A stretch of DNA of 64,000 nucleotides from an uncultured Methylophilaceae bacterium (lineage in GTDB: Bacteria > Pseudomonadota > Gammaproteobacteria > Burkholderiales > Methylophilaceae). The position numbers and the translations under genes were made by a program. Location: positions 1 to 64,000 of the forward strand of contig CAIULB010000029.1 of assembly GCA_903899965.1 (NCBI GenBank), given 5' to 3'. The number at the start of each line of letters is the position of its first letter. Within the stretch, counting starts at the first letter, position 1. Below the pieces are notes generated by a model that saw nothing but the letters and a program-made list of their open reading frames with translations, was not told the origin of the DNA and made no database searches. Positions 46,376 to 51,674 of the stretch are shown here, one piece after another.

Positions 46376-46404
46376 TTGACAATGACCCGCCAAAACAATA
46401 GAAT
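46376..46404 (+). promoter_or_regulatory. Strong sigma-70 promoter, native promoter of the interrupted tRNA-Met
   Basis: TTGACA (46376-46381), a 17-nt spacer and TAGAAT (46399-46404) make a near-consensus promoter with a predicted start near 46411, 27 nt before the tRNA 5' end. CCCGCCA (46386-46392) and TGGCGGG (46404-46410) also form a hairpin across the spacer, which may help end adk transcription. Confidence 0.75.
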
Positions 46405-46437
46405 GGCGGGCTTGCTTAATCAGCAAGTTAACAGGAT

Positions 46438-46476
46438 GGTGATGTAGCTCAGCTGGTTAGAGCGCAGGATTCATAA
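46438..46476 (+). repeat. Left 39-bp direct repeat (candidate attL)
   Basis: This 39-bp segment is identical to 49135-49173. The identity begins exactly at the tRNA 5' end and stops at the end of the anticodon loop. Confidence 0.85.
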
Positions 46477-46549: not shown

Positions 46550-46560
46550 ACTAGCACAGT
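46550..46560 (+). repeat. ACTAGCACAGT, left copy of a short end repeat
   Basis: ACTAGCACAGT lies 74 bp inside the left tRNA repeat and just before the integrase start. The same 11-mer occurs at 48937 and a one-base variant at 48916, near the right end. A candidate integrase arm-type site. Confidence 0.5.
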
Positions 46561-46572
46561 TTAGAGGGTTTG

Positions 46573-47283
46573 ATGGCTACTATCACTAAGACCAAATTCA
46601 ACACTTATCGTGTTCAAATCAGACGTTCAGGCCTACCACCAATCTATCAGTCTTTTAAAACCAAGGAACAAGCGCTCACTTGGGTCAGAAAGACTGAATA
46701 TGAGTTAGACATAGGGACTCACTTAAGCAAAGAAGACTCAGAAAGAATTACCTTTGCTGAACTGGCAACCCGTTATGTCAATCAAGTTTCCCCTAAGAAA
46801 AAAGGCCACAAACAAGAGGTTTATCGCTTCGATTTTAAATTCTTCTGTGAAACGAACTCTACGCATTTGATGCTCCTTTTTTACCTCAATTATGAGGCTA
46901 AAAAGTATCTACTGCATCCGGGTCGATTCACTCAGCAGGATAAAGCAATTGTATATATTGTAAGACCAACGCAACTAGGTGGATTAGTTCGCTTTAATGT
47001 GTTTCTAGATAACCAAGAAGATTCTTCAGAGATGGGGTATACCAGAGCTGGACAATACATTTATTTCAACCTGACCCCAGGAGAACATAAAATATATTCA
47101 AAGGCAGAGAATTGGGCTGAAAGCTTAGTTACAGTGAAACCCGGGGATGTTGTTTTTCTTCAGCAAGAGCCTTCAATGGGAATAATCATGGCAAGAAATA
47201 CTATGTTCAAGCTAGACGACCATGAAGGTAAATATCACGTCAAAACACTGACTCTCGGAACCATTATTAAGTCTGATAAGTAA
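46573..47283 (+). CDS. Chimeric ORF: phage integrase N-terminus fused to a DUF2846-like domain
   Basis: The 237-residue frame has two unrelated parts. Residues 1 to about 90 (KTKFNTYRVQIRRSGLPPIY, then FKTKEQALTW and ITFAELATRYV) match the N-terminal arm-binding and start of the core-binding domain of tyrosine recombinases; no catalytic R-H-R-Y region follows. Residues about 123-237 (AIVYIVRPTQLGG, AGQYIYFNLTPGEHKIYS, VKPGDVVFLQQE) resemble DUF2846 proteins. Those are normally lipoproteins, but no signal peptide or lipobox is present here. The ATG at 46573 has GAGGG 4 nt upstream; a TTG lies one codon earlier. A terminator follows. It is probably the product of a deletion joining two genes in frame; whether it is made is unknown. 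Confidence 0.75.
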   Translation: MATITKTKFNTYRVQIRRSGLPPIYQSFKTKEQALTWVRKTEYELDIGTHLSKEDSERITFAELATRYVNQVSPKKKGHKQEVYRFDFKFFCETNSTHLMLLFYLNYEAKKYLLHPGRFTQQDKAIVYIVRPTQLGGLVRFNVFLDNQEDSSEMGYTRAGQYIYFNLTPGEHKIYSKAENWAESLVTVKPGDVVFLQQEPSMGIIMARNTMFKLDDHEGKYHVKTLTLGTIIKSDK

Positions 47284-47296
47284 CATGAAAATAATT

Positions 47297-47323
47297 AAGC
47301 CCACCTAAGACGTGGGCTTTTTT
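47297..47323 (+). terminator. Terminator after the chimeric ORF
   Basis: AAGCCCAC (47297-47304) pairs perfectly with GTGGGCTT (47312-47319) around a 7-nt loop, followed by a run of six Ts. Confidence 0.9.
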
Positions 47324-47353
47324 ACGTTATAAATTTATATAAAAATAGAGCAG

Positions 47354-47400
47354 CCCCTAAATACCTATATTAAAGGTAATAAATTTCCCCTCCCCACCCT
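47354..47400 (+). repeat. Imperfect direct repeat, copy 1
   Basis: This copy ends in TTTCCCCTCCCCACCCT (47384-47400), identical to 48893-48909, and its upstream part (CCCCTAAATAC...) resembles 48862-48892 with mismatches and one indel. The rest of 47284-47576 is very AT-rich spacer with no gene seen. Confidence 0.6.
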
Positions 47401-47576
47401 CAATAAAATAAAAGCTCTCATAATTAGTCTTTAATTCTCTTGTTTGAATTTTCTTTAATTGAAGGAAATTTTGTACGACACTTTATAGTGAATTATTTAT
47501 GAAAAATATTCATTGAATTCCAAAGCAATATCGATTTGATAATGTTCCAACATGCCAATCAACATGGCTAATGGGT

Positions 47577-48083
47577 CTACTTATTGTAGCTTTCAAGTTT
47601 GCGACTGAGAGTTTCAACAGCTTTCGCTAGAGCTAATAATTCTTTTTCCCTGAGCATGTCTATCTTTTGATGTAACAGTTCAATTTCTATATCCGACTTA
47701 ACACTAATCTCAAAGTTGCCTCTTGCTCTTTGACGGTCAATATCAGTTAAACGATTCTGGCTCATCATAATGACAGGAGCGGTATAAGCTGCTTGAAAAG
47801 ATAATATTAGATTCAGGAAAATAAAGGGGTATGGGTCCCATGGCTTTGGACCAAAGATTTGGTTGCAAATAATCCAAACAGCAATAAGAATGGTCTGCAA
47901 GATAATGAATTGCCAAGACCCCACAGCAATAGCAACTCTATCTGAAATCCTCTGACCCAAAGTCAGTTGTGTTGATGCGTCTGCAGTAGAGGTATTGTCG
48001 GCCTTCAAAGATTCCTGCCTACGCCTACGCTGACGCAATAACTCTAAAACTTGCAAATCTTCTTTTGTTGGCTTTGTTACCAT
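47577..48083 (-). CDS. DUF1003 family membrane protein
   Basis: This 168-residue protein has the DUF1003 layout. A basic N-terminus (LRQRRRRQES) is followed by a first membrane segment, WQFIILQTILIAVWIICNQI, at about residues 57-76. The conserved PWDPYPFIFLNLILSFQAAY begins the second segment, and APVIMMSQNRLTDIDRQRA follows. A C-terminal helical or coiled region rich in Glu and Lys (IEIELLHQKIDML) ends it. The family function is unknown. It is transcribed towards the chimeric ORF and lies within the tRNA-bounded element, between the two copies of the 47-bp repeat, so it was probably acquired. Confidence 0.85.
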   Translation of the reverse strand: MVTKPTKEDLQVLELLRQRRRRQESLKADNTSTADASTQLTLGQRISDRVAIAVGSWQFIILQTILIAVWIICNQIFGPKPWDPYPFIFLNLILSFQAAYTAPVIMMSQNRLTDIDRQRARGNFEISVKSDIEIELLHQKIDMLREKELLALAKAVETLSRKLESYNK

Positions 48084-48362: not shown

Positions 48363-48814
48363 ATGGAAACTAAGACAGGCATGCGTTCAGTTGCAACCTT
48401 TGATGCAGTTGTCGGCTTTTTTGTTTTGGTGGTCGGTGTTGGATTGCTTTTAGTGGCCGATAGCAATCTGAACTTGCTGATAAAACAATACTTGAGATTT
48501 TTTCACATTTCTTTATCTCACCCATTTTCACGGGGACTGCTCGATGTTACTGAACATTTAACGTATCAACAGATTAATTTTCTGGGGTTAATGTCAGCTA
48601 GTTATGCGATGGTACGTCTAACGGAAGCATATGGCCTATGGTATCAAAAGCGCTGGGGGGCATGGCTTGCAATACTGTTATGTGCATTTTTATTCCCATC
48701 GAGATATACGAGGAGATTAATAAAGTCACTTTTACAAATACATTAATTCTGATATTCAACACTTGGATTGTTGTATTTATGATGAACACTTTGACTGAAA
48801 AATCAATCAACTGA
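48363..48814 (+). pseudogene. DUF2127 family membrane protein gene with a frameshift near the 3' end
   Basis: The first frame (48363-48746, 127 residues) reads like DUF2127: GMRSVATFDAVVGFFVLVVG, a second helix block, then MVRLTEAYGLWYQKRWGAWL. It then turns into a basic tail and stops. The frame beginning at 48692 continues the family sequence as IPIEIYEEINKVTFTNTLIL and ends at TGA 48812-48814. The switch lies at the T5 run 48687-48691, so loss of one T from a T6 run would explain it. AGGA precedes the ATG. It may be a real lesion, a sequencing error in the homopolymer or, less likely, recoding. Confidence 0.78.
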
Positions 48815-48861
48815 AAAAATTAAGGACATTTCCCCTTAAGAGTCTCCAAAATATAGAAAAT

Positions 48862-48909
48862 CCCCTCAATACAATATTTGAATAATAAGAATTTTCCCCT
48901 CCCCACCCT
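48862..48909 (+). repeat. Imperfect direct repeat, copy 2
   Basis: This copy ends in TTTCCCCTCCCCACCCT (48893-48909), the 17-mer shared with 47384-47400. With copy 1 it brackets the DUF1003 and DUF2127 genes. Confidence 0.6.
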
Positions 48910-48915
48910 AAATTT

Positions 48916-48926
48916 ACTAGCACAAT
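48916..48926 (+). repeat. ACTAGCACAAT, variant end repeat
   Basis: This 11-mer differs by one base from the copies at 46550 and 48937 and lies 21 bp before the latter in the same orientation. Confidence 0.45.
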
Positions 48927-48936
48927 TTCAACACAC

Positions 48937-48947
48937 ACTAGCACAGT
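48937..48947 (+). repeat. ACTAGCACAGT, right copy of the short end repeat
   Basis: This is identical to 46550-46560. Both copies are followed at a short distance by AGAGGG (46563 and 48959). Confidence 0.5.
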
Positions 48948-48971: not shown

Positions 48972-49001
48972 TTGCCTGCTTCTTGAAGCAAATGCTATAA
49001 T
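48972..49001 (+). promoter_or_regulatory. Predicted sigma-70 promoter in the element, upstream of the intact tRNA-Met
   Basis: TTGCCT (48972-48977), an 18-nt spacer and a perfect TATAAT (48996-49001). Since the native promoter is now 2.7 kb away behind a terminator, this is the best visible candidate for tRNA-Met expression, with a leader of about 127 nt. Confidence 0.6.
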
Positions 49002-49007
49002 GCTTGG

Positions 49008-49134
49008 CTTAGGTTTTGGGGACAATAGAACCCACGACCTCAAGGGCGAAAGCCCGAAGTAACAAGCTGCAAGGCTTGTTGAATTATGAATCGCTAACAA
49101 TGTTTAGTTGTTATTTTGGTTCAGAAAAAGACCT
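49008..49134 (+). other. Structured 5' leader of the tRNA-Met transcript
   Basis: Two hairpins are visible: GGGC-GAAA-GCCC (49044-49055, a GNRA tetraloop) and AACAAGC/GCTTGTT (49061-49067 with 49074-49080). Bases 49028-49042 (GAACCCACGACCTCA) are the exact complement of tRNA bases 49177-49191 in the variable and T-arm region. No reading frame is supported. It may be a precursor leader, a small RNA or a relic. Confidence 0.5.
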
Positions 49135-49173
49135 GGTGATGTAGCTCAGCTGGTTAGAGCGCAGGATTCATAA
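49135..49173 (+). repeat. Right 39-bp direct repeat (candidate attR) within tRNA-Met
   Basis: Identical to 46438-46476. The sequences before the two copies are unrelated, so the duplication begins exactly at the tRNA 5' end. Confidence 0.85.
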
Positions 49174-49211
49174 TCCTGAGGTCGTGGGTTCGATCCCCAC
49201 CATCACCACCA
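49135..49211 (+). tRNA. tRNA-Met (CAT anticodon, elongator)
   Basis: The 77-nt gene folds as a full cloverleaf. The acceptor is GGTGATG/CATCACC, the D-arm contains AGCTCAGCTGGTTAGAGC, and the anticodon stem CAGGA/TCCTG has loop TTCATAA with anticodon CAT. The T-arm is GTGGGTTCGATCCCCAC, and discriminator A and CCA are encoded. G1 pairs with C72 and there is no run of three G-C pairs in the anticodon stem, so it is an elongator rather than an initiator. It differs from the lysidine tRNA-Ile2 by its body sequence. Its first 39 nt duplicate 46438-46476. Confidence 0.96.
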
Positions 49212-49219
49212 CTTACAAC

Positions 49220-49252
49220 AAAGCCCAATGCTCCTAGCATCCGGGCTTTTTT
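49220..49252 (+). terminator. Terminator of tRNA-Met
   Basis: AAGCCC (49221-49226) pairs with GGGCTT (49243-49248), with an inner ATGC/GCAT pairing, followed by a T-run. Confidence 0.88.
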
Positions 49253-49292
49253 GTTGCAAAAAAACAACAAAAATCCACTGCTTGTGTTGCAT

Positions 49293-49306
49293 TTGACCTA
49301 CATCAA
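49293..49306 (+). promoter_or_regulatory. FNR-type binding site upstream of ompW
   Basis: TTGACCTACATCAA matches TTGAT-N4-ATCAA at nine of ten fixed positions. The centre (49299.5) is 41.5 bp upstream of the start predicted from TAAAAT at 49329-49334, the class II activator position. An FNR-like gene lies 2.5 kb away. Confidence 0.75.
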
Positions 49307-49328
49307 AGAGCGACGCATTTAAAGCACA

Positions 49329-49334
49329 TAAAAT
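49329..49334 (+). promoter_or_regulatory. -10 element of ompW
   Basis: TAAAAT, one base from consensus, predicts a start near 49341 and a 39-nt leader. No -35 is present at 17 nt, as expected for an activator-dependent promoter. Confidence 0.6.
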
Positions 49335-49379
49335 TCATCCATCGAGTTTAGATTTAATATTTTTAACGAGGATGGAATC

Positions 49380-50078
49380 ATGAAAAAAACATTATTAGCT
49401 TTAGCAGTGGCAGCTGCTTTAGTACCTTCTCTAGCAATGGCTGAAGCCGGTGACATCGTTGTACGTTTGCGTGCGACACATATTTCAGCAGATGAGAGTA
49501 GTTCTTTGGGTGCTACGACACAGGCGAATGTCGGCAACATTTATGGCAATACTGGCGCAGAGTTGCGCGTAGACAGTAATACAATTCCAGAGATTGATTT
49601 CTCATACTACATCACTAAAAACATCGCAGCTGAGTTGATTTTAGCAACCGGTACGCGCCATGATGTTAGCATCAAGGGTTTAGCAGCGGGCGCAACCGTT
49701 ACAAACCCTAATTTGGGTAGCGTAAATCTCCTGCCTCCTACATTAACTGCTCAATGGCACTTTAACCCAGACCAAACATTTGACCCATATGTAGGTGCTG
49801 GCTTGTCATACGTTCGCGCTATGGATAATGGATTGGCCGCACAGACTGCTGGTGCTCCAGTGCCAATCCGCATCAGCCGCAACAGCTTTGGTCCTGCGAT
49901 TCAGGCTGGTCTTGATTACAACGTACCTGACAGCAAGTGGTTATTGAACGTTGATGTCAAAAAGATCTGGTTTGATACAAAAGTTGAGGGTAATTTTTCT
50001 GGTACTACATGGACAAAAATCGACCAACTTGACGTTGACCCATGGGTTGTATCAGTAGGCTTCGGTCGCAAGTTCTGA
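49380..50078 (+). CDS. ompW: OmpW family outer membrane protein
   Basis: OmpW is a small eight-stranded outer membrane barrel thought to admit hydrophobic compounds and, in E. coli, induced without oxygen by FNR. The 232-residue precursor starts with a signal peptide (MKKTLLALAVAAALVPSLAMA). GDIVVRLRATHISADES is the usual N-terminus of the mature protein, and LPPTLTAQWHFNP and DPYVGAGLSYVRAMD are family blocks. It ends in VSVGFGRKF, the C-terminal Phe of barrel proteins. GAGG precedes the ATG. The FNR box upstream suggests induction under low oxygen. Confidence 0.93.
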   Translation: MKKTLLALAVAAALVPSLAMAEAGDIVVRLRATHISADESSSLGATTQANVGNIYGNTGAELRVDSNTIPEIDFSYYITKNIAAELILATGTRHDVSIKGLAAGATVTNPNLGSVNLLPPTLTAQWHFNPDQTFDPYVGAGLSYVRAMDNGLAAQTAGAPVPIRISRNSFGPAIQAGLDYNVPDSKWLLNVDVKKIWFDTKVEGNFSGTTWTKIDQLDVDPWVVSVGFGRKF

Positions 50079-50138
50079 TTAAGGAGCGCAAGTAAATCTC
50101 CCGTGAATTAACACCCTATTGTTGTTAGCTCCACCCTC

Positions 50139-50169
50139 GCCCCCGTTATCACCATCGGGGGCTTTTTTT
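50139..50169 (+). terminator. Terminator of ompW
   Basis: GCCCCCG (50139-50145) pairs with CGGGGGC (50156-50162), followed by seven Ts. Confidence 0.93.
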
Positions 50170-50191
50170 GTGCATTAAATTGAACAACCGC

Positions 50192-50215
50192 AAAAAAAGC
50201 CGAGCATTGCTCGGC
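50192..50215 (-). terminator. Terminator of hemN
   Basis: Read on the minus strand, GCCGAGC (50215-50209) pairs with GCTCGGC (50205-50199) around a 3-nt loop. The run of As at 50192-50198 becomes the T-run. Confidence 0.9.
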
Positions 50216-50234
50216 ATTTTTATACCTTCAGCAT

Positions 50235-51674
50235 CTAAATAATCTTAGAGAATCTCGCTCTGTTTTGATCCGTTTGTAAGTAGCGGTCAAAGTGCATCGC
50301 TATTCCCCTAACAAAGAACCAACCACGGCTAGTGACTTGAATGCTAGCGTCATCAACAATCACCAAACCTTCTTTTTCCAAAGCTTTTAAGCTGGTAAGT
50401 TCGGCTGAGAAATATTGTTTAAAGTCGATCATGTAAGCGAGTTCAACCGCTTCAAACTGTAGTTCCCCTTGGCACATCAACGCCATAATCACCGCACGGC
50501 GTACCAAATCATCACTGCTTAATGCTAAGCCTTTTACAACGGGCAATTTACCTTGGTTAATGTGATCATAATACTCATCTAAGGTTTTCGCATTTTGGCT
50601 ATAAGTGCTACCAACACGACCAATGGCCGAAACCCCAAGCGCGATTAAATCACAATCTGGTTGCGTGCTATACCCTTGGAAATTGCGGTGTAAACGCCCT
50701 TGTCGTTTAGCAATCGCTAACGGGTCTGTCGGCAACGCAAAATGATCCATGCCCACATACACATAGCCAGCACTTAAGAAGGTTGAAATGGCAATTGAAA
50801 GCATTTCAATCTTATCTGCAGCCACTGGCAAATCTTCAGCATGTATTTTGCGTTGAGGCTTAAAGCGCTGAGGAAGATGTGCATAAGCATAAAGTGCAAT
50901 ACGTTCTGGTTTGAGCGTAGCTACTTGCTGCAATGTGTGAGCAAATGATGTTGGGCTTTGTTTAGGTAAACCGTAAATCAAATCCACATTCACTGAATCA
51001 AAGCCCAATCGTCTTGCAGTGCCAACCAAATCAAATACTTGTTCTGCTGGCTGAATACGGTGCACTGCTTTTTGAACTTCAGCATCAAAATCTTGCACAC
51101 CAAAACTTAAACGATTAAAGCCCAAGCCTGCCAAATGCACTAAGCGCTTTTCATCTACAGTACGTGGATCAATCTCAATCGAATACTCACCATTGGGCGC
51201 AAGCACAAAATTGCGTTTAATCATCTCCATGAGTTGCGTGAGCTCTTCATCATTAAAGAAGGTTGGAGAACCACCACCCAAATGAAGCTGGCTGATGGTT
51301 TGACCTTTACCCAAATGTGCCACATGCAAATCAATCTCACGGCGCAAGTATTCTAAATACTCTGTGCCTCGCTCATGGCGCTTGGTGATAATTTTGTTGC
51401 AGGCACAATAAAAACAAAGTGACTCACAAAAAGGCACGTGCACATAAATAGATAAAGGCAATGCCATCCCACCGATACGTCTTTTATCTAGAGCTTGTTG
51501 ATAATCCTCAACGCCAAAAGCATCCACAAAACGATCTGCAGTTGGATAGGATGTGTAACGCGGACCAGCCACGTCATATTTTTCTAGCACCTCTAGGGTA
51601 ATTTCTTTTAAAGCATCAGTTTCGCTTTGTATTGTTTTATTGCTTACGCCCTCTGCTATTGAAATGACAGTCAT
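50235..51674 (-). CDS. hemN: Oxygen-independent coproporphyrinogen III dehydrogenase
   Basis: HemN is a radical SAM enzyme that makes protoporphyrinogen IX without oxygen. The cluster motif is HVPFCESLCFYCACN, with Cys83, Cys87 and Cys90 binding the 4Fe-4S cluster and Cys92 in the usual fourth position. LHLGGGSPTFF and the HemN C-terminal domain follow, and the 479-residue length is right for true HemN rather than the shorter HemW. A perfect FNR box lies upstream, so it is probably induced when oxygen is low. It is divergent from the fnr-like gene. Confidence 0.96.
   Translation of the reverse strand: MTVISIAEGVSNKTIQSETDALKEITLEVLEKYDVAGPRYTSYPTADRFVDAFGVEDYQQALDKRRIGGMALPLSIYVHVPFCESLCFYCACNKIITKRHERGTEYLEYLRREIDLHVAHLGKGQTISQLHLGGGSPTFFNDEELTQLMEMIKRNFVLAPNGEYSIEIDPRTVDEKRLVHLAGLGFNRLSFGVQDFDAEVQKAVHRIQPAEQVFDLVGTARRLGFDSVNVDLIYGLPKQSPTSFAHTLQQVATLKPERIALYAYAHLPQRFKPQRKIHAEDLPVAADKIEMLSIAISTFLSAGYVYVGMDHFALPTDPLAIAKRQGRLHRNFQGYSTQPDCDLIALGVSAIGRVGSTYSQNAKTLDEYYDHINQGKLPVVKGLALSSDDLVRRAVIMALMCQGELQFEAVELAYMIDFKQYFSAELTSLKALEKEGLVIVDDASIQVTSRGWFFVRGIAMHFDRYLQTDQNRARFSKII

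Follow-up and report, generated by a model that had tools for sequence, protein, structure and literature searches.

tRNA-Met islands termed 'tycheposons', ranging in size from 4 to 200 kbp, have been described in the Methylophilaceae (PMC10872708). The window analysed here, the whole stretch of 64,000 nucleotides from an uncultured Methylophilaceae bacterium, contains a 2.7-kb island at a tRNA-Met gene. A perfect 40-bp repeat of the tRNA-Met 5′ half (46437-46476) and its copy at attR flank this island, which holds a scarred open reading frame (ORF) and two cargo genes, one for a DUF1003 and one for a DUF2127 protein (Table 1). In five relatives (G003, G004, G005, G006 and G009), adk leads straight into a full, uninterrupted tRNA-Met and then into the downstream sequence; the contig of G008 stops just past the tRNA half. 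Between the same tRNA-Met repeats, G002 carries an island of 7.3 kb. With tRNA direct repeats at both ends and empty sites in relatives, the 2.7-kb segment is a tRNA-integrated island.

The scarred ORF (46573-47283, forward strand) runs from ATG to TAA without internal stops and encodes 236 residues, or 237 if the start is the TTG at 46570, upstream of the ATG. The initial annotation had described it as an integrase N-terminus fused in frame to a DUF2846-like domain at a single junction near 46840, through a deletion removing the catalytic domain. The open frame, framed by a GAGGG site and by a hairpin with a T-run, was confirmed, and the catalytic domain (PF00589) is indeed absent. The single junction did not hold. 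Three parts make up the ORF, integrase (residues 1–85), insertion sequence (IS, residues 86–119) and DUF2846 (residues 120–236), with junctions at ~46826 and at 46930/46931 and a ~105-bp end of an IS3-family element in between. A direct integrase–DUF2846 fusion through one deletion is ruled out, as the IS end separates the two pieces. We consider it very likely that IS activity in a decaying tRNA-Met island produced this mosaic by accident and that the ORF is an ordinary relic, an IS/deletion scar. Among the roles first proposed for the product, 'simply a relic' is the best supported.

Table 1. Coordinates of the tRNA-Met island features and of the parts of the chimeric ORF in the window.
Feature	Position	Strand	Evidence or remark
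Sigma-70-like promoter (TTGACA-17-TAGAAT) of tRNA-Met	46376..46404	+	11/12 consensus matches
tRNA-Met 5′ half (attL), broken after the anticodon loop	46438..46476	+	100% identical to 49135-49173; full tRNA-Met there in relatives
Candidate integrase arm-type site ACTAGCACA, attL side	46550..46558	+	exact 9-mer; related site in G002 attL
GAGGG ribosome-binding site inherited from the integrase gene	46564..46568	+	sequence; G002 equivalent is AGGAAGGGATTTAGGATG
Integrase codons 1–85: arm-binding domain and start of core-binding domain	46573..46826	+	64/85 identical to G002 integrase
IS3-family terminal remnant, read antisense as residues 86–119	46827..46930	-	identity to IS copies, alignments ending at 46930
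DUF2846 lipoprotein gene, mature part only (signal peptide, lipobox Cys and linker absent)	46931..47283	+	PF11008; 48–76% identical to L038-L052
Intrinsic terminator 3′ of the ORF	47297..47319	+	8-pair stem and T-run; related terminator module before attR in G002
Island cargo, DUF1003 membrane protein	47577..48083	-	PF06210, E=4.6e-36
Island cargo, DUF2127 membrane protein	48363..48746	+	PF09900, E=9e-23
Two candidate arm-type sites ACTAGCACA (at 48916 and 48937), attR side	48916..48945	+	similar triplet before attR in G002
Restored full tRNA-Met(CAT), attR	49135..49211	+	ARAGORN; preceded by a promoter-like site, 48972-49001

The assignment of the N-terminus to the DNA-binding region of a tyrosine recombinase was borne out, 64 of the 85 residues being identical to an integrase of 330 aa that is intact in G002, a relative within the genus, where it occupies the same tRNA-Met site; this protein matches PF00589 (1.9e-27) plus Int_N. 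The arm-binding domain of such recombinases is present in the ORF; the catalytic domain with its active-site residues is missing, and the Pfam search gave no PF00589 match. In the Pfam search, DUF2846 scored above its cut-off and the N-terminal match (Arm-DNA-bind_4, E=0.046) stayed sub-threshold. The window and G002 are collinear from adk through the tRNA half into the integrase, and the similarity ends at 46817. By eye, integrase sequence can be followed to about 46826 (TATCG), where IS sequence (GCTTCG...) begins, with ~1 bp shared. Matches to the integrase N-terminus were also observed as open frames of 114–192 aa in G095:C24, G141:C1, G178:C49, G189:C1 and G198:C13; truncated integrases may be common in the family, with the proviso that these frames may abut contig ends.

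The middle part ends exactly at an inverted repeat, GGTCGATTCA (46921-46930), and matches to IS DNA recurrently stop at the last of these positions. It retains, on the reverse strand, the start of orfA (MRRVRFTEEFKIEA) at 46866 and the first ~13 codons. Repeat-bounded copies of the element are present elsewhere in the genus and family. The G004 copy measures 1,228 bp and has perfect 12-bp ends (TGAATCGACCCG and CGGGTCGATTCA), and G165 contains three 100%-identical copies of ~1.23 kb bounded by TGAATCGACC...GGTCGATTCA. Membership of the IS3 family is supported by the inverted-repeat end shared with the complete copies (both ends in G004 and G165) and by the products of the G004 copy, an HTH orfA (HTH_Tnp_1, 4.8e-16) and an rve orfB (8.9e-19) whose gene appears in pieces; the window keeps only the ~13 orfA codons. 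An ATA target duplication of 3 bp was recognised by eye at one of the three G165 copies, and the scrap in the window keeps one IS end only. Identity to the scrap is 95.7% for the G004 IS DNA, 100% over 90 bp for the G008 copy and 78–81% for multi-copy elements in G165, G118 and others. Given full identity over 90 bp with a copy from another species, the junction is probably young.

The C-terminal ~115 residues were correctly assigned to DUF2846, with a PF11008 score of 35.9 bits against a curated Pfam cut-off of 34.3. Fifteen loci in genome_contigs (L038-L052) match the ORF from residue ~118 on, at 48–76% identity. The homologous open frames that were read carry a signal peptide and lipobox Cys, then a short linker, upstream of the point at which the window's DUF2846 sequence starts, consistent with the earlier statement that this is normally an exported lipoprotein domain. 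In the ORF, neither signal peptide nor lipobox Cys precedes the domain, and the IS end occupies their place. One of these loci, L046, apparently covered residues 88–236, but it is an ordinary lipoprotein frame with its front aligned by chance. Of the ten genomes of the genus that were searched, the window's own is the only one in which DUF2846 was found; given this absence from the others, the gene was probably acquired with the island. An in-frame ATG at 46870, inside the IS scrap, might be the start of a short DUF2846 protein made on its own and still in use, as the domain is complete to the C-terminus. Such use is extremely unlikely, as the ATG has no ribosome-binding site upstream and the resulting N-terminus (MLLFYLNYEAKKYLL) lacks a lipobox, unlike the homologues.

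The mosaic is best explained by two steps, whose order we infer. An IS3-family element would have entered the island's DUF2846 lipoprotein gene shortly before the part that codes for the folded domain. A later deletion, with one end point at orfA codon ~13 of the IS and the other at codon ~85 of the integrase gene, would have taken with it most of the IS, the core and catalytic domains of the integrase and the 5′ portion of the lipoprotein gene. The island can no longer excise by its own integrase. Any product would be cytoplasmic, with an arm-binding domain joined by a disordered linker to a DUF2846 domain in the wrong compartment, and no selected role would be expected for it.

Alternatively, an assembler might have collapsed through a repeated IS and joined integrase and DUF2846 artificially. 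The ~105-bp scrap is repeat-like, the genome consists of 38 contigs, and the G008 copy of the IS ends exactly at a contig end, indicating that such elements break assemblies. This explanation is nevertheless very unlikely. The two sides belong to one syntenic locus, with matches to relatives both at adk to the left and at 49134-50504 to the right, and the same arm motif occurs at both island ends. In addition, the integrase/IS junction shares only ~1 bp, which leaves no assembler overlap for that junction, and this assembly has no second copy of the IS end.

The initial annotation had proposed to look for the same fusion in other genomes, and neither junction recurs in any of the collections searched. 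The 60 relatives gave single-part matches only and genome_contigs gave matches to the DUF2846 part only. From the other 186 family genomes, a 241-bp DNA query spanning the junctions retrieved the IS part alone, and the fusion was not found in viral_contigs.

The clean frame had been regarded as uncommon, a view that our counts contradict. With the 105-bp IS scrap held fixed, a complete fused frame results from 280 of 840 integrase cut points, and ~9% of cut combinations give an open fused frame when scrap lengths of 20–400 bp are considered. One of the three forward frames through the scrap is open, and the G004 IS is open over 39 codons in the DUF2846 frame. Because a third of the cut points stay open, an intact frame says little in favour of selection; moreover, with the scrap identical over 90 bp to an IS of another species, the time available for stops to arise may have been short. 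At synonymous positions, divergence from the nearest relatives has reached saturation, which leaves no usable dN/dS. Against the relic reading, the frame is open, the ribosome-binding site, start and terminator are all present, and the outer domains look undamaged in the predicted structure.

That structure has a mean pLDDT of 62.7. Residues 1–40 are predicted as strand-strand-strand-helix (pLDDT ~94), most of residues 53–120 have low pLDDT, and the C-terminal domain is beta-rich, with blocks in 141–200 at ~71–87. If the model is right, the N-terminal arm-binding fold is intact and binding to arm sites is possible. When the PDB was searched by sequence, nothing matched the alignment profile, most of which represents DUF2846; the fold search returned 6hif_Y as its one weak match (E=7.6e-4, TMq 0.27), besides generic low-scoring ones. 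In the window, ACTAGCACA occurs only at the three positions in Table 1, with none on the other strand, and its presence at both island ends would fit integrase arm sites.

The tRNA-Met promoter now points into the broken tRNA half and then toward the chimeric ORF. Relatives have a similar TTTTGACA...AAAATGGCGGGC stretch upstream of the tRNA; promoter-like matches in total do not exceed those in shuffled sequences. No terminator was found between this promoter and the integrase start (46376-46476 onward). Transcription of the ORF from the old tRNA-Met promoter is plausible, and islands of this class may rely on the tRNA promoter of the host to express their integrase.

A functional DNA-binding chimera has also to be weighed, in which the arm-binding domain, sitting on ACTAGCACA at attL and attR, would block excision by related integrases or act as a repressor of its own promoter; the DUF2846 part would be a tail, either passive or stabilising. 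The arm-binding fold predicted with high confidence, the candidate arm sites at either end of the island, the inherited ribosome-binding site with a possible tRNA promoter and the 64/85 residues in common with an intact integrase all speak for it. We nevertheless judge it highly improbable, as the fusion occurs in one genome only among those searched, the linker is antisense IS sequence of low pLDDT and an open frame is expected by chance in about a third of cases. Moreover, arm-binding domains are usually weak binders without the remainder of the recombinase. Barely plausible is the specific form in which the IS scrap made a new chimeric protein whose arm-binding domain, on attL and attR, is dominant-negative against related integrases and locks the island in the chromosome. 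Should the product bind att sites, it would be a newly born regulator. The relic reading makes the ORF a clear and well-preserved case in which an IS and a deletion produced a chimeric frame that is open and would be annotated as a gene, and it cautions that an open frame with a ribosome-binding site and a terminator should not be taken for function.

Several further features of the island were observed. The left tRNA half and the restored tRNA of the window genome and of G002 (G002:C16:30331, 37609) share the allele GCGCAGGATTCATAA...CCTGAGG; the other matching genomes of the genus have GCGATGGATTCATAA, and the island may bring or replace tRNA sequence. Upstream of the restored tRNA, 49012-49042 repeats the tRNA-Met 3′ half (49177-49207) imperfectly and in inverted orientation (31 nt, 77% complementary), and a shorter such copy is also found in G002. 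A module of a terminator with AAAATAGAACAGCC / TTCCCCTCCCC recurs after cargo genes in the window (47293-47410 and 48849-48913) and in the G002 island (L074 4707-4740, 6020-6080 and 7074-7193), which suggests repeated cargo units or nested insertions. At G001:C3:51143-54260 (L075), about 2.4 kb separates adk from a full tRNA-Met and is partly similar to the attR side of the window; no left tRNA half was found at this adk/tRNA-Met locus, which is possibly another island state.

The locus can be set against four known systems. With the tyrosine recombinases (PF00589 with Int_N PF24624) of tRNA-Met islands, represented by G002:C16:30466-31458, the ORF shares residues 1–85, the ribosome-binding site and the position at the left end, but it lacks most of the core-binding domain and the whole catalytic domain. 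With DUF2846 (PF11008) lipoproteins such as L038 (76% identical over residues 118–236), it shares the whole mature domain to the C-terminus; however, signal peptide, lipobox Cys and linker are gone and the domain is joined to IS and integrase sequence. From the IS3-family element of ~1.23 kb with ends TGAATCGACC...GGTCGATTCA (G004, G165, G118), the window retains the terminal ~105 bp with its end repeat and ~13 orfA codons; compared with complete copies, >90% of the element is lost and the remnant is read antisense. Finally, like the Methylophilaceae tycheposons (PMC10872708), the island is bordered by tRNA-Met(CAT) and has a tyrosine recombinase at one end, but a tycheposon has an intact recombinase and spans 4–200 kbp, whereas here the integrase is broken and the island is just 2.7 kb long.
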